28,736 nt of DNA, taken from the IMG/VR virus record IMGVR_UViG_3300030101_000397, positions 1 to 28,736 of that record; one strand, 5' to 3'. The notes below the pieces were generated by a model. The model saw only the letters and a list, made by a program, of their open reading frames with translations, ran no database searches and had not been told where the DNA came from. Shown in pieces: positions 1,682 through 24,853 of this stretch (positions within the stretch are counted from its first letter, which is position 1; each line of letters begins with the position of its first letter). The DNA comes from a virus. Made by a program: the position numbers and the translations under genes.

Positions 1682-3856
1682 TTAAAACTCCAGTATGTCC
1701 CAAGTTATAGACAGATGTAACACATTAGCATTAGTATCAAAGTCTGCATTGTCTTGGAAGTTTTGTAACTCGAAAATTAAATAATCTCCCTTAACTACTT
1801 CGTTATCTGTAAAACTAAACGAGCTAGAGCTCCTCTTCTTTAACCTAGCAAGAGATCCTCCACCCTGCCCCCAACCTAATACATTAGCTCCGGTTAAGTC
1901 TGATCTAGTAAGCTCTGTCCAGTTGTCAGGATTTGCATAAGTATTATACCTAGCTTTATAAACTCTAACTCTGCATCTACAGAACTCGTTTGAAAGCATT
2001 TCCCAAGCATTAAATCTTAGTTTCTTATGACTAACTTGGTACGCATCAAACCAAACAGCTGCATGATTTTCACCAATGTTTAAGTTATTCTTTTCAACTA
2101 AGATATCAAATCTATGATTAGTTCTAGTTTGCTCTAAGTGAGTACCTATTGTGCCGTCTACCTCATCGGGTCCGGGACTAACCTTCCAAATATCAATCCC
2201 ATCAGGATGTTCGTTAGTTACAATATTAGTCCACTTTAAGATATCTCCATAATTAGGCTCAGTAGATCCTTGGTTGTATACAGTTACTCCATCAATAACA
2301 GGATAGTATCTTGCGTTTACATCATCTAAGTGATTTAAGTCTTGGCCCGCAAGAATCCACTTGGCCTCATCATCAGGACCAGTGCTGTTTCTCCATTTAA
2401 TTACCCAATTACTCTTTGCATTAGCAAAGTCTACGTGAGGAGTGCCGTCGTCATACCGAGGACCAGCAAATAAGGGAGCTGCATGGAAAGATCCTCTAAC
2501 AGTACCAAAGGAGTCCTTCTGTGCAATAGAAGGTTCCCAATACATTACCCATCCTTTTTGGTAGTAATGGAATAGAGCAGCAAACTCACGACCCCCAGAG
2601 TAAGCTGGATCATTTACGTCTGTTATATCTGCGTCACCTCTCCAAACATTGTTTAAATCCCAAGTATCAAGAGACTTGTCCCTCCAAGTATGAGGAAAAG
2701 CGGTGTTATCGAACCAAGCTAAAACATCCCCTTCAACAGTACCAGTCGCCTGAGTAGATTGAGCTACATCAGCCATTGTATAAATAGAAGTTGTGCTTAA
2801 ATTAAAAACTTCATAAGTTACATCGGGTCTTACTCTTGCTTCCCAACGATTTAAATTAAAATTCCATGTTAATACATGATCATCTGTTAAAGAACCGTCG
2901 TGAAGAACTACTCCAGATGCTTTCCAATTTTCTGAAGTAGCATCATAATAAATTATATTAGAAGTTTCTAAAGCTGATAATGTAATGTCAACATTGTTAA
3001 CTTCTTCTAAAGACAGTCTGCTAAGATCCCATGTAGTTCCAGTCCATTTTAAAACAGAATGATTAACAGAAGTAGAAAGATCTACTGTTTTAGAAAAAGG
3101 TTCAACATTAATAAAGTTTTGAGATGGATCATCCCACGTTAAAACATGTCCATCCACTAATGTTGATTCATTAACGTTAACATCTTTAAGATCTTCAATA
3201 ACAGCATCAGATAAATCTACAGCAAGAATACCCTGTCCACCTAATTGCTCGCTTATATGCTTTAAAGGAATGACACCATTCTCATCTAATGGGCAGATAC
3301 CATTTGAAGATCCCACTCTAAAGTCAAAAATTGTAGGGTTAAGTTCATAAGTTCTTATTTCTTGAATTAAACTCAACAGCTGATTGCTACTTAAGTTTAA
3401 ACTTCTAGCAGTAACTTTGGATCCAGTAACCCAAGCTCTTCCGGGTGTAACAACAGGCGTTTTTCTTCTTATAATAACCGTGTTAGATAAAAAGTCAATG
3501 ACCGGAAGCTGTAGATCTGCACCCCTAGAATGGTGAGTGCCGTTTTTCCAGACGTAATTAGAAGCTGTTGTATTAAAAACTACCTTTTTGTTAGTAGTAT
3601 CTAAAGTATACATAGGACTTCCTGAGCCCTCTCCTGCTAATGTATATAAACTTTCTTTTTCTTTGTTATCGGGAATCCTTGTAACCAGTTCAGATACTGT
3701 AGTAACATCAAAGACTCTTAATACCTCTAACTGATCTTGATCGTTATACAAATCTGATAGCGGTAAAGAACTATAAGAGTAGTTTTCCCCGGAAGCTCCG
3801 CCCTCACCCGGTCCATACTTGACAAATGTAACTGCTTCAGTATAGTTATTAGGCAT
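1682..3856 (-). CDS. Tail fibre protein, T7 gp17-like N-terminus (complete copy)
   Basis: 724 residues. The N-terminal 170 residues resemble the tail-attachment domain of T7 gp17; a segment around 125-165 (TVIIRRKT, then LNLSSNQLLSLIQEI) fits the T7 pattern of beta strand followed by the helix that joins the fibre to the tail. From about 215 onward a loose repeat recurs, L-x-DVN followed by xVLxW: at 237-241, 267-271, 327-331 and 377-381, with related copies near 486 and 570. Such units are common in phage fibre shafts. The C-terminal part contains Trp/Tyr-rich beta sequence. No lyase or deacetylase motif is visible. The start overlaps the tubular B stop by one base (TAATG) with AGGA upstream. 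It is a paralogue of the next gene downstream. A trimeric fibre is expected from the family but not shown here. Confidence 0.85.
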   Translation of the reverse strand: MPNNYTEAVTFVKYGPGEGGASGENYSYSSLPLSDLYNDQDQLEVLRVFDVTTVSELVTRIPDNKEKESLYTLAGEGSGSPMYTLDTTNKKVVFNTTASNYVWKNGTHHSRGADLQLPVIDFLSNTVIIRRKTPVVTPGRAWVTGSKVTARSLNLSSNQLLSLIQEIRTYELNPTIFDFRVGSSNGICPLDENGVIPLKHISEQLGGQGILAVDLSDAVIEDLKDVNVNESTLVDGHVLTWDDPSQNFINVEPFSKTVDLSTSVNHSVLKWTGTTWDLSRLSLEEVNNVDITLSALETSNIIYYDATSENWKASGVVLHDGSLTDDHVLTWNFNLNRWEARVRPDVTYEVFNLSTTSIYTMADVAQSTQATGTVEGDVLAWFDNTAFPHTWRDKSLDTWDLNNVWRGDADITDVNDPAYSGGREFAALFHYYQKGWVMYWEPSIAQKDSFGTVRGSFHAAPLFAGPRYDDGTPHVDFANAKSNWVIKWRNSTGPDDEAKWILAGQDLNHLDDVNARYYPVIDGVTVYNQGSTEPNYGDILKWTNIVTNEHPDGIDIWKVSPGPDEVDGTIGTHLEQTRTNHRFDILVEKNNLNIGENHAAVWFDAYQVSHKKLRFNAWEMLSNEFCRCRVRVYKARYNTYANPDNWTELTRSDLTGANVLGWGQGGGSLARLKKRSSSSFSFTDNEVVKGDYLIFELQNFQDNADFDTNANVLHLSITWDILEF

Positions 3857-6800
3857 TATAAGGTTCCTAAGTCAGTAGTTTTATATTTAAACTTAGCGGT
3901 AAATTCAATATCCGAAATAGACAGGGGATGTACAGAGTCGCTTATGATTTTAATCGTAGCATCTTGAGTAAAGCTAAGCACAGGCAGTTTTAGCACGCCA
4001 AATTCAGAGTATGGTGTGTACGTAAGATTCTGGCTACGCTTACCAGCCACATCAATCGTGAATGGGAAGATATCGGCATCTCTCTCTTTCCTTTGAACAC
4101 TTACCTTAAAGTCTCCAGAGTTTCTAAACCTAACCATTCCTAATCTTAAGTTAAGAGAGCCGTTTTGAGCAGCCATATTTTGATCTCTATAGAATAAAGG
4201 CGAAAGTTCAACTGTGCTAGTAAATGTTTTACCAACATAGAACCCTTCTGTTGCTCCAAGTTTAGTAGAGCCGCTTTGATCTCCTGATACTGTTAGAGAA
4301 ACTGCTCCTTGCGATTCGTATGTTTCATCTACATCTACAGTAGGTGTTAATATATCTCCTCTAGTTCCATTGGATATAATTCCTTCGCCATTATACCAAA
4401 GAACAATAGTGTTTATATCGATAGTAGGGCTTTTAATCCAAACTGTAGTTTTCTGATCGTCTCCAGTGCCTGTAACAGTAGGCCCTGCTACAATATCATC
4501 TTGAGTTATTAAGTTTAAAGAGTCCATTCTTGGCTTGTCTAAGTCTTCATTCTTAAGATGAATCTTACCGCAGTTAACGGTTGTCCAAGTATTAGAACTA
4601 CCCGGAGCGTCTGGCATTTCTTCTTGCCAAACAAGGTATAGGTATTCTCCAATAGCTTTCATGGATTTGATTGTCCATCCTGTTGGGAAAATAAATCTAA
4701 AGAATGAGTTTTGGGCTATCTCAGTCCCGCTAATTCTATTAGTATAGCAGTACACAGTATTAGTAGCGTCCCCATCTAGTATGAATAAACTGTTTAATAC
4801 CGGAGACGTTGTAATCTCATTGTAGTTAGTAGGAAGATAGTCGGGGCAGTTTACAGAAATCTCAACTGCGTTTTGATTTGAATCAGTTTGTTCTCCAAAG
4901 TAGATATATAGTTTGTTTTCTGACAAGAAGAACAAGCTGTTGTTTAACAGAACTGGCTCAACATCTAACGTCATATTATAGAACGACGTTGGTGCAATTT
5001 CTGCGGTAAGGGGCGATATCTGATTTTCTGAGCCAAGCAACTCGTACTGAGTATCGCCATTAGTAGCTAAGAACAAGAAGTTTCTGTAAGGCTGGAGGTA
5101 GGTGATAGGAGTATATGCATTAGAAGATACTCTTAAATCAATAGGATCTGATACGGACAAGTTATCAGGACTAGAGATATACAGGTTATCAAAGTCATTG
5201 ATCCTAGAGGAGACTAATACGTCTTCAGAAGCTAAGAATAGTCTACCTCTATAGAAAGACATTGCTGAAATCTCTCTTTGCAACGCATTCTCATTACCAT
5301 CATGGAAAATAGATGGCCCCGGATTTGACTTATTATCTCCAGAATCCCTAGGATCCCAGTCAACTTGCCTTAAATCCCAAGAAGGAGTGCTGTAACTATC
5401 GTCGAAGACTAACTGCCTAGGCATTCTTCTTCCATCAATAACAGACATCTCGTCTGGAGTTCTGACCTTATGAAGATAGGGCTGTGTTTCTATAGATCTA
5501 ACCCTGTAGTACCCCTCAGACAATCCTAAATACTGTTGACTTAAATAATATATTTTACCTAAGCCAGTGGGTTGAGGATCAGCCCCTATCATATTTCCAA
5601 TATCAGGATACAACTCCTTAAACACACCCTCAACAACATTCCCACCATTGAAGGCGGTAAAGTCTGATTCTGTAGGAGGGAATTTTAAATCGTTTAAAGC
5701 AGCTACAGCCTGACCTAAATATCTTTTGTTTTGATCGGGGTAGAAGTAGTTATCGGGCTCCATGTAATCTGTAACTTCTCCAGTATCTTCCCATTGAGAT
5801 ACGTAGAAATGTGTAGTTACTTCCAAACCGTTTCCAGAAGAGTTTACTATAGCTCTAACATGGAAGAATCCTTTGTCAGCCGCTGCATTTATAGCATTAG
5901 CAATGTGGTTCATTAAAACTGAAACACTGTTTACGTTTTTAATACCAACCTTCATGCGACAATTACTATTAACCGGATCCCCTTCTTCCCAAGTGCTAGT
6001 TAAACCTGTATCTGAAAAGAATGAATAAGAAGAAGTACCGGTATAGCTTAATGTAGTATCGAATTGCATTCTAGGTATCTGTGGAGAGGTGGTACTTTCA
6101 TAAGTTACATTTTCTAACCAATGAGGAAAGCCTATTTTTTGTCCGTTAAAAGTATCCGCATCTGCGGAGTCAAGAATAGCAGTAGGAACAGTAGCAGTTC
6201 CTGCAATGTACTCATGATTATTTTGAAAAGTCCAAGTTTCTACAGATCTAGTAGATTCTGTGCCCCCAGAAAAATAAGATCTTTTAAAATATTTAGGAGG
6301 AACCCCTGTAGTAACTGATTGAAGGTTTAAATTTTCTGAAGATATACCACGATTGGGCCTTCTAACCGGGTTTCCTGTACCATCAGGACCAACCACTGTA
6401 GAAGCTGCGTCTTTAACTTGAAAGATTTTATATTGTAAATACCTATAGTCGTTATCGTTATCCCCAAACGGATCTGAGTTATCTATATCATTGCTGTCAC
6501 CACTAAGCCTAGCCGTTGTGTCAATAGCTTTATCCCCAGCAATATACTGACTGTATTCAGTCCAATACTCTGCCTCGCTCTTTGTATCTACGGTAATTGA
6601 AGTAGCGTATTTAATCTCTTGACCAAGGTAATCTGTGATATTAGGATTTGTAACTGTGCCATCCATATTCCTAAGTATACCGGTTGTTCCTAAGTCATTA
6701 CCATTAGGGTCGGTGTCTGTAGAACTAGTAAACCCGGCTTTAACTTTTGTATTTAAAATCAAGATAGAGGATCCTACAGCAACAGCCCTCAAAGCTTCCT

Positions 6801-9496: not shown

Positions 9497-10450
9497 TTAT
9501 GCAGGCAGGTTATTAAAGTCAGTACGAAGCATTCTCTGCTCAACCGCAGCCCTAAACTGTGGTTCTAACTTGAACCTAGGGTTATTGCGATCTGCCTTGA
9601 ACTCTCGCTGAGTTTTGTACCCAACAAAACCTTCTTCAGAAGCTGCAACATTCTGTAGATTTTCTATAGGAGCTGGCTCATTGCTCTTTTCTACAGCCAC
9701 AGACCTCTGTTCATACATTGAAGCCAGACCCCTGAGCGTCACCTCATAAGACTGACTTGCTAAGCCTCTATTAATTTCGAGCTGCTCATCATAAGATAAG
9801 TTACCTTCAGCCCAATCAAAAATACTCTTTAACTTGTCTCTGCCCCCAACAACGTCAGCAGCAACACCGAAAGATTCTCTCATCTTTGCCTTGTGTGCCG
9901 AGATATAATCTTCGATCACCTCCTTAGGAAAGTTAGTTACCTTTTGAATCTGAGCCATAGTATCTTCAGACATCTCTCCTGTAGCAGCTAATTCTCCCGA
10001 CCACTCGTTCCACATATCTTGAGTTAACTGTGCTGGAACTTCTGGTTGAGTTTCTACCTGCTGAGGATCCTTTGCATTCAATCTCAGCTCTTCATCTCCA
10101 GTAAGGACAGGCTCTGGAGCAGGTGCTTCCACAGCCTCGGCGCCTTCGACTTCTGGATTATAGTTAGGGTTTGTTGTATCACCTTCACTGTACTGTTGTT
10201 TAAGTGAAGCCAACTCTTGTTGGCCTCTTGTGTAGTTAGCCTGAGCTTCCTTTAAAGAATTAAACCAATCTCCTGCTGATTTAAAGTTTTCAGGAATCTC
10301 TACACCACCATCTTGAACATACTTTTCGAACATAATCTGTTCTCTAGTTTGTGCAAGTTCATCCGGTGTAGTAGTAAGATTATCACTAGCCTGTTCTATT
10401 CTTTCCTGAGACTGGCTAGGCCCCGGCGTGTATTCGGTATTCTGATCCAT
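9497..10450 (-). CDS. Scaffold (capsid assembly) protein, T7 gp9-like
   Basis: 317 residues from the ATG at 10450, close to T7 gp9 (307). I chose this start because AAGGAG lies about 6 bases upstream; the frame stays open for 12 more codons, which would overlap the previous gene. The protein is acidic, rich in Glu, Gln and Pro (PEVEGAEAVEAPAPEPV near 110), and predicted to be mostly helical. A motif near 153-188 (WNEWSGELAATGEMSEDT, then FPKEVIEDYI) is typical of scaffold proteins in this phage group. The C-terminus is basic, as expected for binding the capsid protein. It lies immediately before the capsid gene. It should direct procapsid assembly and leave during packaging. Confidence 0.87.
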   Translation of the reverse strand: MDQNTEYTPGPSQSQERIEQASDNLTTTPDELAQTREQIMFEKYVQDGGVEIPENFKSAGDWFNSLKEAQANYTRGQQELASLKQQYSEGDTTNPNYNPEVEGAEAVEAPAPEPVLTGDEELRLNAKDPQQVETQPEVPAQLTQDMWNEWSGELAATGEMSEDTMAQIQKVTNFPKEVIEDYISAHKAKMRESFGVAADVVGGRDKLKSIFDWAEGNLSYDEQLEINRGLASQSYEVTLRGLASMYEQRSVAVEKSNEPAPIENLQNVAASEEGFVGYKTQREFKADRNNPRFKLEPQFRAAVEQRMLRTDFNNLPA

Positions 10451-10482: not shown

Positions 10483-10695
10483 TCAAAGAATTTTAACTAA
10501 AACACTGACAGCTGTTGATAGCACGAAGGCTACAGCAGCCGCAGTTATATAAGATTTTGTTTGCAGTACAGCAATGTTTCTTTCAATATATCCCAAACGA
10601 CGATCCATTGTATCTAATCTTTTATTAGCTCGTTCAAGTTCGTTTATTACTAATTTCTTGTACTCGTCCCAGCCGTTTGAGTGAGGAGGTGTCAT
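10483..10695 (-). CDS. Small XhlA/holin-like membrane protein
   Basis: 70 residues. A charged amphipathic helix (about 10-45: ELERANKRLDTMDRRL, then YIERNIAVLQ) is followed by one membrane segment (about 50-69) and a C-terminal KIL. This layout, coiled-coil then C-terminal membrane anchor, is that of XhlA-type and similar small phage membrane proteins. It could be a lysis accessory protein or a virion membrane protein. Its ATG overlaps the stop of the Lys/Met-rich gene as ATGA. No strong ribosome site is visible, so coupling is likely. In T7 nothing membrane-bound lies directly before the scaffold gene. Function is not proven; the gene looks real because it fills the space exactly between its neighbours. 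Confidence 0.6.
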   Translation of the reverse strand: MTPPHSNGWDEYKKLVINELERANKRLDTMDRRLGYIERNIAVLQTKSYITAAAVAFVLSTAVSVLVKIL

Positions 10696-10801: not shown

Positions 10802-11125
10802 CTACTTCTCCCTTTTTCTAGAGCCGGTAGTTAAATAGGCTACCGCAAAAACACTTAAGGCACTAGGCGATGGAAAAATTAATTCATCTCCTAGACCTAT
10901 ATTAAATTTACCGGAAGCTTCTATCCAACTTAGAATAGAATCCAGAGCTTCCTTTCCAAAAATTGCAAGTATCGCTACACCAATTAGGGTGTATATTAAC
11001 ATTTGTTTATTTAGTTTCTTAAGTTTTTTCTCTTTTGATTGATTGCTTTTATTGCATTTGTGTAAATCTTCCCGTAATTTTTGCACCTCTCGGTCTCTAC
11101 AATTAGGGCAGTCTTGTTTATTCAT
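10802..11125 (-). CDS. Small membrane protein with N-terminal CxxC
   Basis: 107 residues. The N-terminus has Cys6 and Cys9 in CPNC and a further Cys24, followed by a very Lys-rich helix (about 30-40). A membrane segment lies at about 42-57, and a second weak hydrophobic stretch at about 87-99. The C-terminus is basic (GSRKREK). No strong ribosome site precedes the ATG; the sequence upstream is AT-rich, 8 bases after the stop of the LamG-like gene. It could be a small membrane protein involved in lysis or membrane contact, perhaps paired with the 70-residue protein two genes downstream. No family is recognised. A soluble, metal-binding N-terminus on the cytoplasmic side is possible. Confidence 0.55.
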   Translation of the reverse strand: MNKQDCPNCRDREVQKLREDLHKCNKSNQSKEKKLKKLNKQMLIYTLIGVAILAIFGKEALDSILSWIEASGKFNIGLGDELIFPSPSALSVFAVAYLTTGSRKREK

Positions 11126-12192: not shown

Positions 12193-13460
12193 TTATATAC
12201 TACAATTAAACTATGAGTTCCTGTAGTATTACTACTATCAGCCATAGTAACTTCGTTAGAATTCACCACAAATCTGGCGTAAGGATGTCCTGACTTGTCT
12301 GTTAAATCAACTTCGAACATAACTATACCTGTAGAATCAGCTTTAATATCAGATCCAACAACAATAGGATCCGTATAATTAATACCATCATGAGAGTATT
12401 GGATGGCTAAATTAACAGGACTTGCTTCAGCACCGCTAGCAAAAAAGTTGGGATGATCTACGGAACAAATATCGTTAAAGTTTCCAGTAATAGAAGTGTT
12501 GCCACCAGTGCCAGTTCCAACCTGAGTAACCGTCACCTTTCCTAGAACACTATCAGCATTAGCTACAACAGTAAATCTACCAGTTCCATGTCCATGAGTA
12601 GCGTCGTCAACTGCATTCTTAAAGTTAGTAGCAGTTGTTGACACAGTAGCACCAGCATCAAACTCTCTCTTGCCAAGAGTATTTACACCCGTACCACCAG
12701 CAAGATTGCCAGCCGAAGCAGCGGATCCTGTAGCATTAGCAATAGCGATATCGTTCCCAGAAGTACCAGCATTTGTAGCAGTTAAAGTAACCAAGGTGCC
12801 CGAGCTTCCAAGAGCTGCACTTAAACCTACAATACCATTAGCACTGGTTCCACTTCCAAAATGCACTCTAGAGTTAGTATCCCCATTGATGGCATCTCTA
12901 ATAGCTTCGGCAACAGTTCCGTCACTTGCCCCGCTAGTACCAATACCTATAACGCCCGATCCAGCAGAAGTACTTCCGTTAGTATCGTTACACATTTGCA
13001 TAAATATAGCAGTGCCCTCTCCTCCAGAAGCTGTGGGAACAGTAAAAGAAATTCTAACACTGCTAGAGTTGGCAAGGCCTGAAGCATTAATAGCATCTAC
13101 CTTAGTTGCTTGCACTCGTTCTTTAATAGTATAAGTTCTTTCCTCTCCATCAGTAGAGGTTAAAGTAATAGTTTTACCGTCAGGGGCTCCGCTAATAGTA
13201 GCGTCAGTAGAATGAAAAGTAAAAGCCATTGTTCCGCCCGTTGCAGCAGAACCGTTAATATATCCTGTAGTTTTGACATCTACTCCTGCTAAAACTTTCT
13301 TGCCTAGAATATCATCAGTAAAAGTATTGATTGAATTGTGGGCTAAAGCTTTAGTTCCATCAGCAGCAGCTAATGCATCTGTAGTAGCTGTTTCTTTAAC
13401 AGTAAAGAAGTTGGTTATAGTTGAACCAAACGCTTTACTTTGTTCGTTATAAGTGGGCAT
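12189..13460 (-). CDS. Repeat-containing structural protein between portal and scaffold
   Basis: 423 residues, rich in Ser, Thr, Gly, Ala and Asn, with few charged residues. At least two copies of a module are visible: a helix (AEAIRDAIN near 185; ATNFKNAVD near 278), then strands, then a Gly-rich hairpin (VTLTATNAGTSGNDIAI near 228; VTVTQVGTGTGGNTSIT near 309). The C-terminal 90 or so residues read as another beta domain (NLAIQYSHDGINYTDPI). Such beta-rich low-complexity proteins are often phage decoration or tail proteins. AAGGAG lies 9 bases before the ATG, inside the end of the portal gene. It is co-transcribed and coupled with the LamG-like gene. In T7 the portal is followed directly by the scaffold, so both are additions. 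Exact function unknown. Confidence 0.6.
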   Translation of the reverse strand: MPTYNEQSKAFGSTITNFFTVKETATTDALAAADGTKALAHNSINTFTDDILGKKVLAGVDVKTTGYINGSAATGGTMAFTFHSTDATISGAPDGKTITLTSTDGEERTYTIKERVQATKVDAINASGLANSSSVRISFTVPTASGGEGTAIFMQMCNDTNGSTSAGSGVIGIGTSGASDGTVAEAIRDAINGDTNSRVHFGSGTSANGIVGLSAALGSSGTLVTLTATNAGTSGNDIAIANATGSAASAGNLAGGTGVNTLGKREFDAGATVSTTATNFKNAVDDATHGHGTGRFTVVANADSVLGKVTVTQVGTGTGGNTSITGNFNDICSVDHPNFFASGAEASPVNLAIQYSHDGINYTDPIVVGSDIKADSTGIVMFEVDLTDKSGHPYARFVVNSNEVTMADSSNTTGTHSLIVVYK

Positions 13461-13461
13461 G

Positions 13462-15039
13462 TTACATCACTCCTTGCATGATTTGTTGGATTCCTTGTCC
13501 ACCCGTTTGTTCTATATCCTGCATAGCCATTTGCTGTGCGGTTTGTGTAACAGCATCAGTAACACCCATTGTCTGCTGTTGTTCGGCTTGCATAGCCATC
13601 TGTCTTCTCTGTTCTTCTTCAGCCTCAGCTCTAACCTCGTCTTCTCCCTTAATCCAAGAGTCAGGGCTAAACCCAAGTGAAGTAATTAAAGCTCTGCCAT
13701 ACATGTCCCACTTGAACATCATTGCTGCCTGCTCGGGGAGATTTCTCACCATCTCACCCATCTGCATAAGCTTCTGTAAATCTGAATCTCTGCTTAAAGC
13801 TTGGAGACCGGTAATGATTTCAATATCTAATAAACCATCTTTAACGAACATATCACTGAGACGCTCGTCAATTGACCCGTCAGCTAGCATTAGGAAGACA
13901 GCTCTTGAAACAACAGGTTTCATTAAGTCTCTAGCAATTGCCGAGAAAGCTCCGCCAAGAACGTGCTCGAGCTCCTGTCCTATCATCCTAACGGCGGTTG
14001 CCGTAACTCTGTCTCCACTAGGAATACTAGAAGAATCTAACAGGAATGCTCTTCCTATTTCTCTTCTTAATATTTCTACACCCGACTGGGTAGCTGAGAT
14101 CTGGGGCTGCATCGTATCAGCAGGCGAAATAGTAAACACCTCTCCCTGTCTTGCGGGAACCCAAGCACCAGTCGGTGACGAAACAATGTCATCTAACTCA
14201 GTCATTCCAGCCGGGTCACAAGCCATCCAGAATAACGAGGATGCGGTAATACCGTACACGAGACCTTCCGTAAAGGATTCAAGAGCCTTGATGTCACCAA
14301 TCAAATCTTCTACATGAGATCTTCCATAGTTTTCTCCGGGTATCGAAGACCAACGCAAGGCTACAAACGGAGGAGTCTTGTACTCTCCTACATCTAAAGT
14401 ATTACCGTCTTCGTCCTGCTTCTCTATAACCCAATTATCCGAGTCACCTTTGTAAGCGCGTACAAAGATTTTCTTGTAGCCCCTCTTGTGCCACATGGTT
14501 TGGGAAGAGGAGGACAATACAGCCTCATCATTGGCATCATCCATAGTTTGATACTCAATGTAAATTAACTCTTCCATATTACCATAAACGTCACGCCTAA
14601 TACAATACCTATCAAGTCTAATAAGCCTAAAGTTGTAGTCATCATCCATGATTAACAGCACGTCACCAATAACAATGAGATGCTGGAGAACTTGGTAAAT
14701 AGTTTCCCTAAGGTTTCCGGAGGATAACTTATTAAAGACCTGATAGCTCAGAGTTTCTAAGTAAGAAAAGATTTCAGGGTCCGGCTCAGCACCAGTTGTC
14801 ATTTCAAACTTAAAGAAAGGCATATCGTTTAAGGGTAACAGGGCACTAAGCATTCTACTAGACATAGCGGTAACTCCCCGCGCAGCTGTGGAGCTATAGG
14901 GCTGGGGCAGCGGCTCTTGTTCAGTCCACTCTTCTGGAGGTAATAGAGAGGGAACGGTAAGGCTGCTGTAGTACCTACTTCTTTCTAGCTTGTGAGTACG
15001 AAGCCCATCAAGTATATTAAATCTATCTGATATATTCAT
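13462..15039 (-). CDS. Portal (head-tail connector) protein, T7 gp8-like
   Basis: 525 residues, close to T7 gp8 (536). Matching blocks include VPSLLP near 29-34 with ARGVTAMSSRMLSALLPL near 54-71, a VIGDVLLIMDDDYNFRLIRL block near 123-142, ENYGRSHVEDLIGDIKALES near 236-255, and DRVTATAVRMIGQELEHVLGG near 326-346. The C-terminal tail is Gln- and Met-rich, as in T7. The protein forms the dodecameric ring through which DNA enters and leaves the head. The ATG overlaps the previous stop as ATGA and has no strong ribosome site, so translation is probably coupled to the 122-residue gene. Assignment is firm. Confidence 0.96.
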   Translation of the reverse strand: MNISDRFNILDGLRTHKLERSRYYSSLTVPSLLPPEEWTEQEPLPQPYSSTAARGVTAMSSRMLSALLPLNDMPFFKFEMTTGAEPDPEIFSYLETLSYQVFNKLSSGNLRETIYQVLQHLIVIGDVLLIMDDDYNFRLIRLDRYCIRRDVYGNMEELIYIEYQTMDDANDEAVLSSSSQTMWHKRGYKKIFVRAYKGDSDNWVIEKQDEDGNTLDVGEYKTPPFVALRWSSIPGENYGRSHVEDLIGDIKALESFTEGLVYGITASSLFWMACDPAGMTELDDIVSSPTGAWVPARQGEVFTISPADTMQPQISATQSGVEILRREIGRAFLLDSSSIPSGDRVTATAVRMIGQELEHVLGGAFSAIARDLMKPVVSRAVFLMLADGSIDERLSDMFVKDGLLDIEIITGLQALSRDSDLQKLMQMGEMVRNLPEQAAMMFKWDMYGRALITSLGFSPDSWIKGEDEVRAEAEEEQRRQMAMQAEQQQTMGVTDAVTQTAQQMAMQDIEQTGGQGIQQIMQGVM

Positions 15040-15404
15040 GTAGTAAACTCAGTATACGAACCAGAACTTAAACCCTTTGCTAAAGAAGAGAACATGTTAG
15101 TAAAGGCCTGCTCTGGATCAGCTGCTAAAGCATCTTGCTGAGCAAAGGCTTCATCAACACTTTCTTCCTGTTGATCTTGAAGCTCCTTGATGCGTGCCTC
15201 TTCTTCTTTTCTTTTACGCAAAGCCTTACGTTCTTCTAAACTTTCCATAAACTCCCGATCTTCCCTAGCTAAATCTCTTTGAAAAGTTTGTTCCATACGA
15301 GCCTGTTGCGTTTGAAACTTGTACTCGTCTTTTCTCATCTGCAACGCTGCTGGGGAAAACGGATCCGGTGCTACCGGAGCTGCTGCTTGTGCTCCAAATC
15401 CCAT
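15036..15404 (-). CDS. Small Glu/Gln/Lys-rich protein, candidate virion component
   Basis: 122 residues. It starts MGFGAQAAAPVAPDPFSP and continues as a long charged helix (about 22-85) rich in Glu, Arg, Lys and Gln, ending in SSLAKGLSSGSYTEFTT. No enzymatic motif is seen. GGAGG lies 6 bases before the ATG. It is translationally coupled to the portal gene (ATGA) and follows a similar charged protein that also begins MGF. Position just before the portal corresponds to T7 genes 6.7-7.3, which encode small virion or tail-assembly proteins. The product may help assemble the head-tail junction. This is inferred from place and composition only. Confidence 0.65.
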   Translation of the reverse strand: MGFGAQAAAPVAPDPFSPAALQMRKDEYKFQTQQARMEQTFQRDLAREDREFMESLEERKALRKRKEEEARIKELQDQQEESVDEAFAQQDALAADPEQAFTNMFSSLAKGLSSGSYTEFTT

Positions 15405-15415
15405 AGTATACCTCC

Positions 15416-15892
15416 TTAAACGGGCCTGTTACGGCCACCCTGTCTTGTTCCTCTAAGAGCTAAAGTTAAACCCGTAGACTTGGGTTTAAACTTTTGAAAA
15501 CCTTCTCTAGTTGCTAAGCTTCTCTTCTTTTCACCACGAAGCAATCCACCCGTGCCTCCTCTTTGCTCGGCCATAGCGGATATATTCATACCTTCTTCAC
15601 CACGCTTTTCAGAAGTAAGTCTAGCTGCCTCTTCTTTTCTCTGCTTAACAAGAGCTCTCTTTCTGTCCATCGAAGAGTCATAGTACGAAGCTTGTCTCAT
15701 CTTTTGGTTTAGACTTTCTTGGTAAGCCATGAACTCAGCTTGCTCTTGAGCTTGAGCTTCTTCATAAGCTCTCTGCTGTCTCTCAGCCTCAGCAGCTCGT
15801 TGCCTAGCTTCACGCTCGGCAATATCACGTCTATTCTGTGGGCCAATATCTGTATCAAACACGTCATCGACTACATCTGCGACAAATCCCAT
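15416..15892 (-). CDS. Helical protein with Gly-rich C-terminus, possible T7 gp7.3-like virion protein
   Basis: 158 residues. The N-terminus is MGFVADVVDDVFDTD; residues 20-100 form a long Ala/Glu/Gln/Arg helix. The C-terminus, STGLTLALRGTRQGGRNRPV, is basic and Gly-rich and loosely resembles the end of T7 gp7.3 and its relatives (a short Leu/Ser strand then Gly-rich tail). gp7.3 is a small virion protein needed for infectivity. An AAGGAGG ribosome site lies 6 bases before the ATG, the strongest in this cluster, implying high expression as for a virion protein. The neighbour downstream is of similar character. The gp7.3 link is tentative because it rests on position, composition and a short motif. 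Confidence 0.6.
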   Translation of the reverse strand: MGFVADVVDDVFDTDIGPQNRRDIAEREARQRAAEAERQQRAYEEAQAQEQAEFMAYQESLNQKMRQASYYDSSMDRKRALVKQRKEEAARLTSEKRGEEGMNISAMAEQRGGTGGLLRGEKKRSLATREGFQKFKPKSTGLTLALRGTRQGGRNRPV

Positions 15893-15894
15893 GG

Positions 15895-16086
15895 CTACCT
15901 CCTTTCCTGTTGCTTTCTTAACAACTCTAAACGTTTAATTAGATCTCTTTGACCAGATCTAAATATAACTCTGTTCTTAAACTCTTCAATGTCTTCATCA
16001 ACATTGTACTCAAGAGGAGGAAACATCTCCTCCAGATACTTTATTAGTTCTTCTTCTAGTTTTGGCAGGCTTTTCCAGTTCTTCAT
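15895..16086 (-). CDS. Small charged helical protein, unknown function
   Basis: 63 residues, rich in Glu, Lys, Arg and Leu, probably helical (LPKLEEELIKYLEEMFPPLE; later RDLIKRLELLRKQQERR). It overlaps the end of the 66-residue gene by 77 bases in another frame. A shorter form from the internal ATG at 16026 would still overlap, and its GGAGGAG sits too close to that ATG to be ideal. The stop codon is 2 bases before the ATG of the next gene. No family recognised. I call it a gene because its end fits the operon closely; the start is uncertain. Confidence 0.5.
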   Translation of the reverse strand: MKNWKSLPKLEEELIKYLEEMFPPLEYNVDEDIEEFKNRVIFRSGQRDLIKRLELLRKQQERR

Positions 16087-16210
16087 TAGATTTTTCTACC
16101 TTATTAAGTCTATCGTGTAAATCCCTAAGGACTATCAATGTTTCATTAGGCGTTACCATAGAACCAAAACGTTCAAGCCTCGAATAAATACCTCGCAATT
16201 GATCACTCAT
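16010..16210 (-). CDS. Small helical protein downstream of the reductase, unknown function
   Basis: 66 residues. The first 50 look like a coiled coil (RGIYSRLERFGSM, later LRDLHDRLNKVEKSNEELEK), followed by a basic patch (KTRRRTNK) and a Ser-rich end. The ATG overlaps the reductase stop as ATGA, and GGAG lies 7 bases upstream inside the reductase gene, so it is clearly coupled to it. Small coiled-coil proteins of this type are common between the replication and head modules of T7-like phages. No known function can be assigned. Confidence 0.6.
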   Translation of the reverse strand: MSDQLRGIYSRLERFGSMVTPNETLIVLRDLHDRLNKVEKSNEELEKPAKTRRRTNKVSGGDVSSS

Positions 16211-18105
16211 GTGTTTTCTCCTACAAGATCCACAACCTCACAAGATCCACCAGTGCAAGCCAGTGTATGTGAACTAGTTGTCGTATCTTCTTTCTCATAG
16301 TTACTTAATTCTGACCAATCCAAGTTGTTTGGCATGTTATCTATAAGACTTAAGTATACCTCTTCGGTAATAGCTTCAAACGGAGCTTGCTCATAAACAT
16401 GATCTGTGTGAGGCAGGAATGAAATACCCGACACCCACTCCCAGTTGTTGTAAACCCACTGACCAATGTCCATGAAGGTAGCATCGGTATAGTTGATAGT
16501 AACACTGGGCTTGTGATCGCACCAATACTTTTGATAAGTCAACCAAAGATCCAAATGAGACATGGGATCATATTCCTTGTAAGTCTTTGAGTCTGTAGGA
16601 GACTTGGTTGGGAATGCAAAGATAACAGTGTGCTCTGGCCTTTGGTTGCACGGCTCACTAGGGATACCGTTAGCTTCCATAAACCTACACAGCGGGTTGT
16701 CTTTGTCAATTCTTACCCGTCTGATGTAATAATCAGAATACCTAGGGTGAATACCAGAAGATGTTCCGGCAACACACGACGTAGTACCTGATGGCTTACA
16801 ACATGTAATAGACTTTGAGGGACTGATGCCCAGAATCTCAGCCCACTTAACATTTGTTTCGTGAGCACACTTCTTAAGCTCTGCCAAAACATCTTCCAGT
16901 TCTTTGTTAGATGTAGACATAAGCTTGCTGTCAAAGATTCCCGTAAACGAAACTCCAAGCAGCCTCTCTTCTTCGCAGTTAGCCTTCCACTCAGGATCTA
17001 AGTAGGAAAACTTAGTGCAAGCTGATTGAATTGTACCAAGAATAGTAGCCATTCTAACCTTACGCATCAAGCTTACCTTGTCATCATAGGGTCGAACAAC
17101 CACCTCAGTCAAGTTACAAAACTGCTTAGGTCTGAGAATGATTTCGCTACAGGGATTAGTTCCCCAGTTGCTAGAAGTACGGCCAGCCTTAGTAGCAATC
17201 TTATTCATTGCCTCCCGGTTACAGATTCCTCTTTCTCCCGAGTGCGAGTCATACAATGATGACCACTCCTCAAGGAATCTACCAAGAGATGGCTTGGACT
17301 CATACACCGCAGAGTTGTTAGCCAGTGACCTATGGCCGCTGGCCTCCCACCATGCTCCGGCTTTAGCGTGAGCCATCTCTCTGTCATTTAAATCTGACAA
17401 GGATATCAAGGCTGACCGCCTCACTCCTCCAGCAATTACGATCTCACCGATCATACATACAATGTCGTGGACCTCCAGAGGGGTCAGCTTTCGGCCTTCA
17501 GCTTCGTAGAATAAGTTAACAATAAACTTAAACAGTCTTTCCAAAGGCTCAGGACCAGAAGCCCTACCACCAAACGTCTTAAGTCTAGCTCCCTTAGGCC
17601 TGACTCGAGATGTTTCCCAAGTAGGATGGAACCCCTTATAGAGAGATGACATCAAGTCATTCAAAGCGTTAGCCCAACCCCGTCTGGAGTCCTCCACAAC
17701 AATTTCTACCTTCTCTTCCCTTACAAGCTGCGGCACAACAGGAAGTTGAGAAACTTCTCCGGATTCACAAGAGAACCCTACGCCAGTACCGCAACAAAGG
17801 ATGTAAAGAATATCTGAAAACGATCTAATAGAGCTTATTGGTAGATACGAGCAGTTATACAGGCAGGTATCATCTACCTCAGCAGCAGGACCAGCTGTCA
17901 TCAAGGCTCTCATAGAGGGGAATACCTCTAAGTCCTTGGTAGCTTGACGGATATCGTCAAACCCATGCTCCAATACTACCGGGAAACGTTCTGAGAAATA
18001 GTCGTAGTAACGGTCAACGCACTCGCCCCAAGTCTCTCTTCTTCCCTCATTATCAAGCCATCTACAATAGCTTCTGCTCACAACAAACTCTTGAAAGTTA
18101 TCCAT
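16207..18105 (-). CDS. nrdJ: Class II (B12-dependent) ribonucleotide reductase
   Basis: 632 residues from the ATG at 18105, chosen because GGAGA lies about 7 bases upstream; the frame extends 14 codons further to a TTG. It reduces ribonucleotides to deoxyribonucleotides for phage DNA synthesis. Visible residues: Cys85 in YNCSYLP (redox pair), Cys319 in NPCSEI (thiyl radical site) with Glu321, Cys330 in FCNLTE (redox pair partner), a PSGTTS phosphate-binding loop near 438-443, and a C-terminal ACTGGSC pair (Cys617, Cys622). CGTGVGFS near 105-112, GRASGP near 180-185 and RYSDYYIRRVR near 455-465 follow the monomeric Lactobacillus-type enzyme, which is about 100 residues longer. No small-subunit gene is present, as expected for class II. 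Fine class assignment needs an alignment. Confidence 0.92.
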   Translation of the reverse strand: MDNFQEFVVSRSYCRWLDNEGRRETWGECVDRYYDYFSERFPVVLEHGFDDIRQATKDLEVFPSMRALMTAGPAAEVDDTCLYNCSYLPISSIRSFSDILYILCCGTGVGFSCESGEVSQLPVVPQLVREEKVEIVVEDSRRGWANALNDLMSSLYKGFHPTWETSRVRPKGARLKTFGGRASGPEPLERLFKFIVNLFYEAEGRKLTPLEVHDIVCMIGEIVIAGGVRRSALISLSDLNDREMAHAKAGAWWEASGHRSLANNSAVYESKPSLGRFLEEWSSLYDSHSGERGICNREAMNKIATKAGRTSSNWGTNPCSEIILRPKQFCNLTEVVVRPYDDKVSLMRKVRMATILGTIQSACTKFSYLDPEWKANCEEERLLGVSFTGIFDSKLMSTSNKELEDVLAELKKCAHETNVKWAEILGISPSKSITCCKPSGTTSCVAGTSSGIHPRYSDYYIRRVRIDKDNPLCRFMEANGIPSEPCNQRPEHTVIFAFPTKSPTDSKTYKEYDPMSHLDLWLTYQKYWCDHKPSVTINYTDATFMDIGQWVYNNWEWVSGISFLPHTDHVYEQAPFEAITEEVYLSLIDNMPNNLDWSELSNYEKEDTTTSSHTLACTGGSCEVVDLVGENT

Positions 18106-22096: not shown

Positions 22097-23803
22097 CTAT
22101 CTGTTAATAAGAACCTTTCCATCATCATCAATAGCCCACTCTGCTTCCTTCATTCTACCACTTGCGTGATCGTAAAACAAGCATGTGCAGATACCAGCCT
22201 TACCAGTCAACCGATTCTTCAGTACTCGTACTGTTGTACAGTTAGAGATGTAAGGGTCGGGGTTCTGCCTGTCTCGCTCCAGTGCAATCACTGTGTTAGG
22301 AACAGAAGCCAGAGAACCAGAGCCACGCAAGTCTTGTAGGGTAATGCGATCACCCTCTTCGTAGGCTTTCTGTGTCTTCTTTAGCTGTGAGATGACATCA
22401 ATTCGTACACCTGTTCGGCTTACCAGAGCACGTAGCTCTTTCATAATGTTGTCAATAAGCAGTCGCTCGTTGCTTCCACCATCGTAGTCGTTAGATGCGT
22501 TCATCAATCCAGTTGCAGCCGCAGTAATGTGGTCAAGAACAATCACATCTACACCAAGCGACACTGCCATGAACTCAATGCGAGCGCATAGGTTCTGCAA
22601 TCCGTTGTTGCCAAGGTGATCGTAGATGTATAGAGATGTCTCTTCTAGTCGCCTTCTTGCGTCAGCGTAATCATCATCTGATAAGTCATCAATGACATCA
22701 ATGTAGATAGGATCCTTACCCATCTTGATTCTGAGGTCATTCATAATCTTCTTAGCACGCAATGCTCTGACTGGCTTGTTTACCATCAGGGAGATAATGT
22801 CATCGACAGTCTCCTGTGGAGATTCTTCGAGCATGATAGCACCGACAGACCTGCCGTGGACTAGATGATCGTAGATCATTTCCCGTAAGATAGTAGACTT
22901 ACCTGAGCCAGTACCCGAAGTCCACAATGTAATCTCTCCACTTCGTTGACCCAGTAGGTACTCTGACATAGTGTCGAACGGGAACGGGTACACCTTTGTA
23001 TCCTCTTCTTCAAGAGAAGTTTCGATGTCACTGATGTGAACAATCTCGTCAGGCGAATACCTTCGAGCCTCCCACATAGCTTGGATCACAGCCTTGCCTT
23101 GTCCGTTAAGGAGACACTCATTGGCATCCTTGTAAGGCAGACTTGCAATCTTACACCGACCCGGAGGCAGTAGCTCTGCAACCTCGGAAGCAGCTTCTTG
23201 TCCCGGCTCGTCCATGTCAAACATAAGAATGACTTCTTCGTAACTATTAAGGAACTCGAGGTTATCCTTGACTGCTTTGACTGCGCCAGCAGCACCATTG
23301 GGCAGGCTTACACAAGCCCACTTGTTGTCTTGCAGTTGGGATACGGTCATGCAATCGTACTCACCTTCAGTGACTACAACCTTCTTGCCGCCTTTATTCT
23401 TCCATAGGTGTTGTCCAAACAACGTGGGCTTTTCTGACCGTCCTCTCCACTGGAAAGACTTGTTAGCTCCACGAAGTTTCTGTGCTACCACTGTTCCGTT
23501 TTCGTAGTAGTTACTAATCTCTACTCGCTTACCGTTAGATAGATGCGTCAGATATCCATACATCCGCGCTGTCTTTTCGTTGATCCTGCGAGAGTCGAGA
23601 GACTTTGCATCGCCCGACATGAATCCAATTTCGTTTGTTGTGGTTTTCATTGGTTTCTTTACCTGTCCTTTTCCGCTATCATAATAGCTACATGAGAAAC
23701 AAAACTTATGTCCATCACTGTAGACTGCTAGATTGTCTTGAGAAGTGTCCTGCCCACGGGATGCGCAGGCAGGACACTGTTCTCGTTCAATTACCTTTGA
23801 CAT
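22097..23803 (-). CDS. DNA primase-helicase, T7 gp4-like
   Basis: 568 residues (T7 gp4A: 566). A zinc ribbon is formed by Cys10, Cys13, Cys35 and Cys38. The Toprim primase domain has TEGEYD (145-150) and FDMDEPG (195-201). The hexameric helicase has Walker A in SGTGSGKST (296-304, Lys302), Walker B in VIVLDHI (420-426), ISQLKKTQ (471-478) and LRGSGSL followed by TVIALERD (492-511). It unwinds the fork and makes primers. Met62 lies where T7 starts its short helicase-only form, but only a weak GGA precedes it here, so a short form is uncertain. AAGGAG upstream overlaps the stop of the 45-residue gene. The polymerase follows 11 bases later. Confidence 0.96.
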   Translation of the reverse strand: MSKVIEREQCPACASRGQDTSQDNLAVYSDGHKFCFSCSYYDSGKGQVKKPMKTTTNEIGFMSGDAKSLDSRRINEKTARMYGYLTHLSNGKRVEISNYYENGTVVAQKLRGANKSFQWRGRSEKPTLFGQHLWKNKGGKKVVVTEGEYDCMTVSQLQDNKWACVSLPNGAAGAVKAVKDNLEFLNSYEEVILMFDMDEPGQEAASEVAELLPPGRCKIASLPYKDANECLLNGQGKAVIQAMWEARRYSPDEIVHISDIETSLEEEDTKVYPFPFDTMSEYLLGQRSGEITLWTSGTGSGKSTILREMIYDHLVHGRSVGAIMLEESPQETVDDIISLMVNKPVRALRAKKIMNDLRIKMGKDPIYIDVIDDLSDDDYADARRRLEETSLYIYDHLGNNGLQNLCARIEFMAVSLGVDVIVLDHITAAATGLMNASNDYDGGSNERLLIDNIMKELRALVSRTGVRIDVISQLKKTQKAYEEGDRITLQDLRGSGSLASVPNTVIALERDRQNPDPYISNCTTVRVLKNRLTGKAGICTCLFYDHASGRMKEAEWAIDDDGKVLINR

Positions 23804-23812
23804 TTACTCTCC

Positions 23813-23950
23813 TTAACACTTATCGCAAGTGTTGAAAAACGGGCACTTTCTCTTAGCCCAGCACCACATGTGAGGGCCAATCATTGATCCAGCCATAAAG
23901 ATTACGATACTATAAAACGTAGTACCAAGAGCTTCACTCATCCAGTTCAT
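23813..23950 (-). CDS. 45-residue membrane protein with Cys-rich end
   Basis: I read this ORF by hand: the ATG at 23950 overlaps the previous stop (ATGA), and TAA ends at 23813. The protein is MNWMSEALGT, then a membrane-like stretch from about 11 to 32 (FYSIVIFMAGSMIG), then a basic, Cys-rich tail with Cys30, Cys36, Cys42 and Cys45 (CPFFNTC, then DKC). The tail could bind metal or form disulfides. The primase-helicase ribosome site overlaps its stop, so it is a true link in the coupled chain. No family recognised. It follows a lipoprotein-like membrane gene, and the pair may work together at the inner membrane. Confidence 0.65.
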   Translation of the reverse strand: MNWMSEALGTTFYSIVIFMAGSMIGPHMWCWAKRKCPFFNTCDKC

Positions 23951-24348
23951 AACTTAAACTCCTTAAGTTTTATCTTGTCATCATTGACAATCTTCCACAC
24001 TACCTTGCCTGCCCACGCCAAGCTAATCGCTCCAGTGCAAACAGCAACTGGAATAAAGAACCAATTAGCATACAAGGCTATAGCAAAGTTAACTATTACA
24101 AAAGCAATGCCCCCTATCAACGGGCGCCAGCCCATTGTCCCTCGGGTAATTACAAGCAATGCCATTCCTGCTAGTATGCAGAAGCCACCGATCCAACTCA
24201 ACATCGAAGAGCATCCTGCTCCCTGTGTTGTTACCGATCCAATGGTGTCTGTGATCTGTTGCGTTGTTGTAGGTTTCGGAAGTATTGAACATCCGGTCAT
24301 TATACTACATCCCGACAGCAGTGTCAAGATCATTTTCGAATCCAACAT
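23947..24348 (-). CDS. Lipoprotein-like membrane protein, unknown function
   Basis: 133 residues. The start MLDSKMILTLLSGC carries a good lipobox (LSGC, Cys14), with a second possible one at Cys20 (MTGC). A Thr-rich linker follows, then three hydrophobic segments at about 50-68, 76-93 and 96-116, and a charged tail (NDDKIKLKEFKL). A lipid anchor followed by several membrane segments is unusual. Possible roles are superinfection exclusion, lysis or host membrane change; none is supported directly. GGAGG lies 7 bases before the ATG. It overlaps the previous gene by 44 bases and couples to the 45-residue gene. Confidence 0.65.
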   Translation of the reverse strand: MLDSKMILTLLSGCSIMTGCSILPKPTTTQQITDTIGSVTTQGAGCSSMLSWIGGFCILAGMALLVITRGTMGWRPLIGGIAFVIVNFAIALYANWFFIPVAVCTGAISLAWAGKVVWKIVNDDKIKLKEFKL

Positions 24349-24601
24349 GATTTTCCTCCAAGGCTGTGATTGAAAGTATAAGTTGCTTGGGTATCTTAGT
24401 CACTTGACCAAACTCATCTTCGCCAACGCTGTCGGTCAAAGAGATCCACCCCTCACTGTTGTGCAACACATAGCCAACTGTCCACATAATAGGCAGCGCT
24501 GATGTCGCTACTTCCATAGCTTCTGATGCAGATGTCCAACTCGCTTCCGTTGAAGTGATGGCATCTTCCCAGCAAATTTTTACAATAGGATACTCACACA
24601 T
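24305..24601 (-). CDS. Conserved small phage protein of unknown function
   Basis: 98 residues. The pattern CWEDAITSTEASW, then TVGYVLHNSEGWISLTDS, then IPKQLILSI is one I associate with a small soluble protein found in many phages: a W-x-DA start, a central GY-x-L strand pair, and an IPK-x-x-I end, giving a compact beta-rich fold. No catalytic residues are apparent. AAAGGAG lies 7 bases before the ATG, directly after the 3' end of tRNA-Leu. It overlaps the lipoprotein-like gene by 44 bases. Function unknown; the family recognition is from memory and moderate. Confidence 0.65.
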   Translation of the reverse strand: MCEYPIVKICWEDAITSTEASWTSASEAMEVATSALPIMWTVGYVLHNSEGWISLTDSVGEDEFGQVTKIPKQLILSITALEENHVGFENDLDTAVGM

Positions 24602-24616
24602 AACGTTCTCCTTTAA

Positions 24617-24700
24617 TACCCTCGATGGGACTCGAACCCATACTCCCTAACGGGAAACAGATTTTAAGTCTGTCGCGTCTGCCAGTTCCGCCACAAGGGC
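24617..24700 (-). tRNA. tRNA-Leu (anticodon UAA)
   Basis: 84 bases. The acceptor arm pairs GCCCTTG with CGAGGGT; the anticodon stem ACAGA/TCTGT holds the loop CTTAAAA (anticodon TAA). A long variable arm (TTCCCGTTAGGGA) marks a class II tRNA. The T-arm is TGGG-TTCGAGT-CCCA. The discriminator base is A; no CCA is encoded. It reads TTA codons. Confidence 0.97.
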
Positions 24701-24704
24701 AAAG

Positions 24705-24777
24705 CACTCCGAGTAGGATTCGAACCTACGACCCACGGCTTAGAAGGCCGTTGCTCTGTCCCCTGAGCTATCGGAGC
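24705..24777 (-). tRNA. tRNA-Arg (anticodon UCU)
   Basis: 73 bases. The acceptor arm GCTCCGA pairs with TCGGAGT (one G-U pair). The anticodon stem ACGGC/GCCGT holds CTTCTAA (anticodon TCT). The T-arm is GTAGG-TTCGAAT-CCTAC. The discriminator is G and no CCA is encoded. Only 4 bases separate it from tRNA-Leu. It reads AGA codons. Confidence 0.97.
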
Positions 24778-24780
24778 AAG

Positions 24781-24853
24781 TAGGCCAGCCCGGATTCGAA
24801 CCGGGGACCAAGCGATTATGAGCCGCTTGCTCTGACCGCTGAGCTACTGGCCT
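24781..24853 (-). tRNA. tRNA with CAU anticodon, probably tRNA-Ile2
   Basis: 73 bases. The acceptor arm AGGCCAG pairs with CTGGCCT. The anticodon stem AGCGG/TCGCT holds CTCATAA (anticodon CAT). The run from the anticodon loop into the variable loop, CTCATAATCGCTTGGTC, is like that of E. coli tRNA-Ile2 (ileX) and less like elongator Met. I therefore favour an Ile tRNA whose C34 is changed to lysidine to read AUA. Its 5' end overlaps the last two bases of the rusA stop codon. Confidence 0.93.

Follow-up and report, generated by a model that had tools for sequence, protein, structure and literature searches.

A lipobox-bearing three-helix protein and its one-helix partner: a conserved phage gene pair with a possible role in lysis

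The window, i.e., the whole stretch of DNA analyzed here, is a 28.7-kb viral record of an uncultured T7-like phage, which is probably marine, judging from its relatives among pelagic phages. Its minus strand shows a T7-like gene order, with RNA polymerase, phosphoesterase, SSB, RusA, three tRNAs (24616-24853), the ORFs in question, primase-helicase (22097..23803, minus strand) and DNA polymerase, after which a ribonucleotide-reductase-like gene and then the virion genes follow. As described in the earlier note, three ORFs are present on the minus strand between the tRNAs and the primase-helicase: a 98-aa ORF (24305..24601), a 133-aa ORF (23947..24348; gene 1, LIPO3TM) and a 45-aa ORF (23813..23950; gene 2, SMALLTM). 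The 133-aa ORF shares 44 nt with the 98-aa ORF and 4 nt with the 45-aa ORF; the latter overlap reads ATGA, and AAGGAG lies ahead of the SMALLTM start. The three ORFs had been taken as one coupled cassette. However, homologs of the 98-aa ORF were found in the related genomes G002, G003, G011, G014 and G015, all at other loci, and in G011 and G014 the pair is absent. In other relatives, the spot of this ORF is taken by a different 91-aa gene or by nothing. Since its homologs occupy other positions and occur even where the pair is lacking, the 98-aa ORF was left out of the unit; it is a mere neighbor, and the unit consists of two genes.

LIPO3TM is composed of a short lipoprotein signal with a lipobox, a variable linker of 23-32 residues and three predicted membrane helices. 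The lipobox MTGC covers residues 17-20 (24289..24300, minus strand), and a PROSITE-like lipobox pattern was recognized in 31/34 LIPO3TM relatives versus 9/490 other ORFs of similar size. Helix 1 is predicted at residues 48-67 (24148..24207), helix 2 at residues 75-93 (24070..24126), just after a conserved GWRP motif, and helix 3 at residues 98-122 (23983..24057), followed by a charged C-terminal tail (all on the minus strand). Two AlphaFold models reached a mean pLDDT of 63 and 68, and only the helix borders of LIPO3TM were used from them. An N-out, C-in topology is predicted from the lipobox and the positive loops. We infer that the protein is lipidated, and the lipid-bearing residue is most likely Cys20 rather than Cys14, since Cys20 aligns with the only N-terminal Cys that is invariant across the homologs (47/47). 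Cys14 would also pass as lipobox-like, in the sequence of the window alone. Thus, the lipobox and the three membrane segments noticed earlier are predicted here as well, but the assignment to Cys14 should probably be revised. Cys46 is invariant inside the window's main clade, not across the 47 homologs, and an Asp after the lipobox Cys was found in 0/34 LIPO3TM proteins. An internal start at Met49 was also considered and ruled out, as relatives have no conserved Shine-Dalgarno sequence upstream of it.

A scan of IMG/VR with the LIPO3TM family yielded 64 loci representing 37 distinct proteins; in each case, the next gene encodes a one-helix membrane partner of 36-48 aa, and the primase comes after it. 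The partner starts between −17 and +2 nt from the LIPO3TM stop in these 37 extracted proteins. Features shared by the SMALLTM proteins are LGTxFY, a GxxxG-type motif, which is also present in the product of gene 2, and a W...P end. The four Cys in the short tail, to which attention had been drawn, are specific to a lineage, since tail Cys are absent in 16/27 partners; hence, they were rejected as a functional signature. A conservation search using SMALLTM alone gave no result, the protein being insufficiently conserved. The dN/dS values range from 0.05 to 0.30 for LIPO3TM and from 0.04 to 0.62 for SMALLTM, and these low values argue that both genes encode real proteins under purifying selection.

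Embedded in the codons for the gene 1 signal peptide is a perfect sigma70-type promoter (TTGACA-17-TATAAT; 24299..24327, minus strand). In a comparison of 40 sequences, that of the window among them, 14 carry a site scoring at least 10/12; the spacer is 17 nt in every case, and the codons involved are nearly always the same. Random synonymous codons would be expected to give 1.5 such sites, a figure which ignores the kinship of the sequences. A further TTGACA-17-TATTAT occurs near the end of the phosphoesterase gene (window 26043-26015, minus strand). Most relatives also have it ahead of the pair, which may reflect only conserved codons (V-D-K ... Y-Y). Across the whole records of G002 and G003 (L076-L083), all strong sigma70-like sites (at least 11/12) lie on the coding strand (5:0 and 6:0), suggesting that these phages make use of many host-type promoters besides having a T7-type polymerase.

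A primase tree unites 41 pair-bearing phages in a single clade with a support of 99/98. Sister phages lack the pair at the primase slot, and more distant phages have a T7-type amidase there. A search blind to the cassette detected the pair in 13/13 clade members whose contigs spanned the slot; some of them had already appeared among the loci of the first IMG/VR scan. Distant LIPO3TM members are 67-77% identical in the helical core and 23-36% in the N-terminal part; for comparison, identities are 72% for the primase, 63% for DNA polymerase and 53% for the capsid protein. No LIPO3TM relatives were detected in bacterial genomes by a pattern scan, no counterparts of the pair in the named phages of INPHARED, no counterpart in Pfam, PHROG, NCBIfam or PDB, and no fold match in a Foldseek comparison of the two AlphaFold models. 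The earlier remark that this combination resembles no described system therefore holds against all these collections. Two weak matches in L203 and L235 turned out to be shadow ORFs inside the phosphoesterase gene and were discarded.

The position next to the primase corresponds, as proposed before, to the slot of the T7 lysozyme gp3.5, where T7 and related phages carry an amidase. A restriction of the pair to this slot was overturned when a search with a wider LIPO3TM alignment found it elsewhere, and the pair is spread over several phage lineages. In T7, the late genes are ordered as fiber 17, holin 17.5, TerS 18, Rz 18.5 and TerL 19. G028 and G033 have a fiber-type gene, LIPO3TM, SMALLTM, a 54-aa membrane-anchored coiled-coil protein and TerS; in G029, a 90-aa membrane coiled-coil protein (weakly Rz-like in PHROG, E 0.0048), LIPO3TM, a 36-aa protein, TerS (PHROG match, E 0.0016) and TerL (also matched in PHROG) follow each other. 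The succession of fiber-type gene, pair and TerS in these three genomes is the same as that of 17, 17.5 and 18 in T7, the label “fiber-type” for the large upstream genes being based on position and size, not on a family match. Other late contexts were found in G026, where the pair and a coiled-coil gene precede scaffold and MCP; in G027, a 37.8-kb T7-like phage, where the pair separates scaffold from MCP; and in G036, which gave no match to the T7-type polymerase reference and in which the pair, accompanied by a 106-aa membrane coiled-coil gene, lies between terminase and portal. G026, G028, G033, G029 and G036 all have a membrane-anchored coiled-coil gene adjacent to the pair. The window itself contains two late membrane-anchored coiled-coil genes on the minus strand (10483-10695 and 10802-11125), the first directly before the scaffold gene; their products are possible late partners of the pair.

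Several observations bear on how the pair came to occupy two slots. The primase of G026 groups with the window's clade, yet nothing pair-like precedes it. The gap between fiber and TerS contains no membrane gene in genomes of the window's clade, as would be expected if the pair had moved away. In the LIPO3TM tree, the primase-slot members fall into two groups, and one of these is nested next to a member from the late slot; this would imply either two separate moves or a single move followed by a return. The direction was probably from the late to the primase slot, a preference that we hold solely because the late position spans more lineages. Further, in G011 and G014, which do not have the pair, the gene immediately preceding a coiled-coil gene encodes an unrelated three-helix protein; the coiled-coil protein of G011 shares approximately 50% identity with its counterparts next to the pair in G026, G028 and G033. 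The three-helix protein belongs to PHROG 38283, whose function is given as unknown in PHROG, and is absent from 18 pair-bearing records. Homology with LIPO3TM was dismissed, as the two share no profile similarity. The simplest reading, supported by these two genomes only, is that two unrelated membrane proteins would fill one role.

Based on these results, we lean toward interpreting the pair as a lipid-anchored holin pair resembling class I holins, which in the window's clade has moved to the lysozyme slot. After export, the gene 1 product would receive its lipid on Cys20, on the outer side of the inner membrane, which it would thread three times, N-out and C-in, in the manner of a class I holin. 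The gene 2 product would be a one-helix partner assembling with it, and both proteins would form a membrane lesion when the infection ends, working with a separate, late-made membrane-anchored coiled-coil protein. In the window's clade, the pair would have left the late region and settled ahead of the primase, at the site of the lysozyme gene in other T7-like phages. We infer a lytic role from the holin slot, the number of helices, the one-helix partner, the coiled-coil neighbor and the displacement by another three-helix protein. In four large genomes surveyed, the pair includes the sole conserved multi-helix protein. Of the two functions suggested earlier, help in lysis thus appears better supported than a block of superinfection, given the homologous pairs in T7's holin slot elsewhere.

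Several findings speak against a holin. The pair of the window's clade is located in the replication region beside a host-type promoter, which is odd for a late lysis gene. The LIPO3TM core is conserved about as well as DNA polymerase, which is unusual for holins. Fast-varying small membrane proteins are encoded after a giant ORF (G002 64865, G003 62925, G008 59459) and could be the holin instead of the pair. The giant ORF itself comprises about 4,100-4,700 aa (e.g., G029 43936-56256, G033 19815-33962), and scanned pieces of its G003 counterpart gave no Pfam match. No known holin family was matched by sequence or fold (Pfam, PHROG, NCBIfam, PDB, Foldseek). Holins comprise many unrelated families; the missing match makes membership in a known family less likely and leaves the proposed function unaffected. 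An endolysin was searched for using PF01510, PF00959, PF13539 and PF01464, none of which was found in 13 records, which may be incomplete; the same searches gave matches in control genomes. Therefore, no lysis enzyme marks the pair locus; the phages may encode an enzyme of a novel kind or one contained in the giant ORF, or they may have none.

Among the other explanations, superinfection exclusion is the main rival, although we consider it unlikely: an early inner-membrane lipoprotein and its partner would stop the DNA entry of incoming phages. It stays the main rival because of the position near the host-type promoter in the window's clade, where this promoter is embedded in gene 1 and the pair lies in the replication region. 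The lipoprotein nature of LIPO3TM also fits, as the phage lipoproteins T5 Llp and Cor act in this way (PMC9586334), and one member has a weak PHROG match to Cor (E 0.004), probably to the signal peptide only. On the other hand, Llp and Cor act at the outer membrane and are devoid of membrane helices, and the pair is among late genes in several other phages. Its core is 67-77% identical, as opposed to 21-34% for the presumed targets of its recognition, the putative internal virion proteins, and its presence in all slot-covered clade members of the cassette-blind search is unlike typical accessory exclusion genes.

It is improbable that the pair is a replication-tied membrane anchor or a host-takeover factor made together with the primase. 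Its conservation resembles that of replication proteins, and in the window's clade it is always found directly before the primase, which starts about 106-157 nt after gene 1. However, the pair is far from the primase in G026, G028, G029, G033, G027 and G036, and the cytoplasmic tail of LIPO3TM is not conserved among relatives. We likewise give little credence to a late membrane protein for virion assembly or DNA ejection rather than lysis: several phages have the pair between or beside scaffold and capsid genes, but fiber-type gene, pair and TerS in G028, G029 and G033 mark the lysis slot, the pair of the window's clade sits with replication genes, and we know of no virion protein with this type of architecture. 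Finally, it seems highly improbable that, in these dsDNA phages, the pair and the coiled-coil protein are a self-sufficient system that lyses the host without a conventional endolysin, for instance through a block of lipoprotein sorting or of cell-wall synthesis.

Two features of the relatives were recorded besides these. A second, divergent T7-polymerase-like gene encoding 708-713 aa is present in G026 (3256-5397), G028 (13346-15475) and G033 (14260-16386), its product being 23-24% identical to the main polymerase. A 180-aa ORF in L076 of G002 (9564-10106) gave a borderline match to a citrate-synthase C-terminal domain (E 4.6e-06, below the Pfam cut-off).

If the preferred reading of a lipid-anchored holin pair is correct, a lipoprotein holin would be a new architecture in phage lysis, missing from annotation libraries, and a pair changing places between the holin slot of the late genes and the lysozyme slot of the replication region would constitute a natural experiment on lysis timing. 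As no recognized endolysin was found in pair-bearing phages, how their host cells burst becomes a testable question.

Among known systems, T7 lysozyme gp3.5 shares the slot directly before the primase but is a soluble enzyme; its Amidase_2 domain is absent from the pair, and PF01510 from all pair-bearing records tested. Llp and Cor are small phage lipoproteins like LIPO3TM, which has three predicted helices in contrast to these helix-free proteins acting at the outer membrane. The unimolecular spanin T1 gp11 likewise combines an N-terminal lipobox with a C-terminal membrane anchor in one protein, and the lipobox is indeed found in LIPO3TM (31/34 by the PROSITE-like pattern, Cys in 47/47). Nevertheless, LIPO3TM has three helices rather than one and its linker of 23-32 residues is too short to cross the periplasm, which rules out a u-spanin; moreover, a Cys is located at the membrane face in many members, but periplasmic Cys occur in 0/58 u-spanins (PMC6139136). 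The class II holin T7 gp17.5 occupies the place between fiber and TerS, as relatives of the pair do next to a fiber-type gene, but has two helices, no lipobox and no partner gene. Although without a sequence or fold match, the class I holin lambda S105 is similar to LIPO3TM in size and in the topology predicted for the latter (PMC10865782): both are short and have a charged C-terminal tail, and LIPO3TM is predicted to have the same three helices in an N-out, C-in orientation. As with class I holins, some relatives of the pair (G028, G029, G033) occupy the holin slot of T7-like genomes, the pair of the window being found in the lysozyme slot instead. Compared with lambda S105, LIPO3TM adds a lipoprotein signal and lipobox before the helices, together with a constant one-helix partner.
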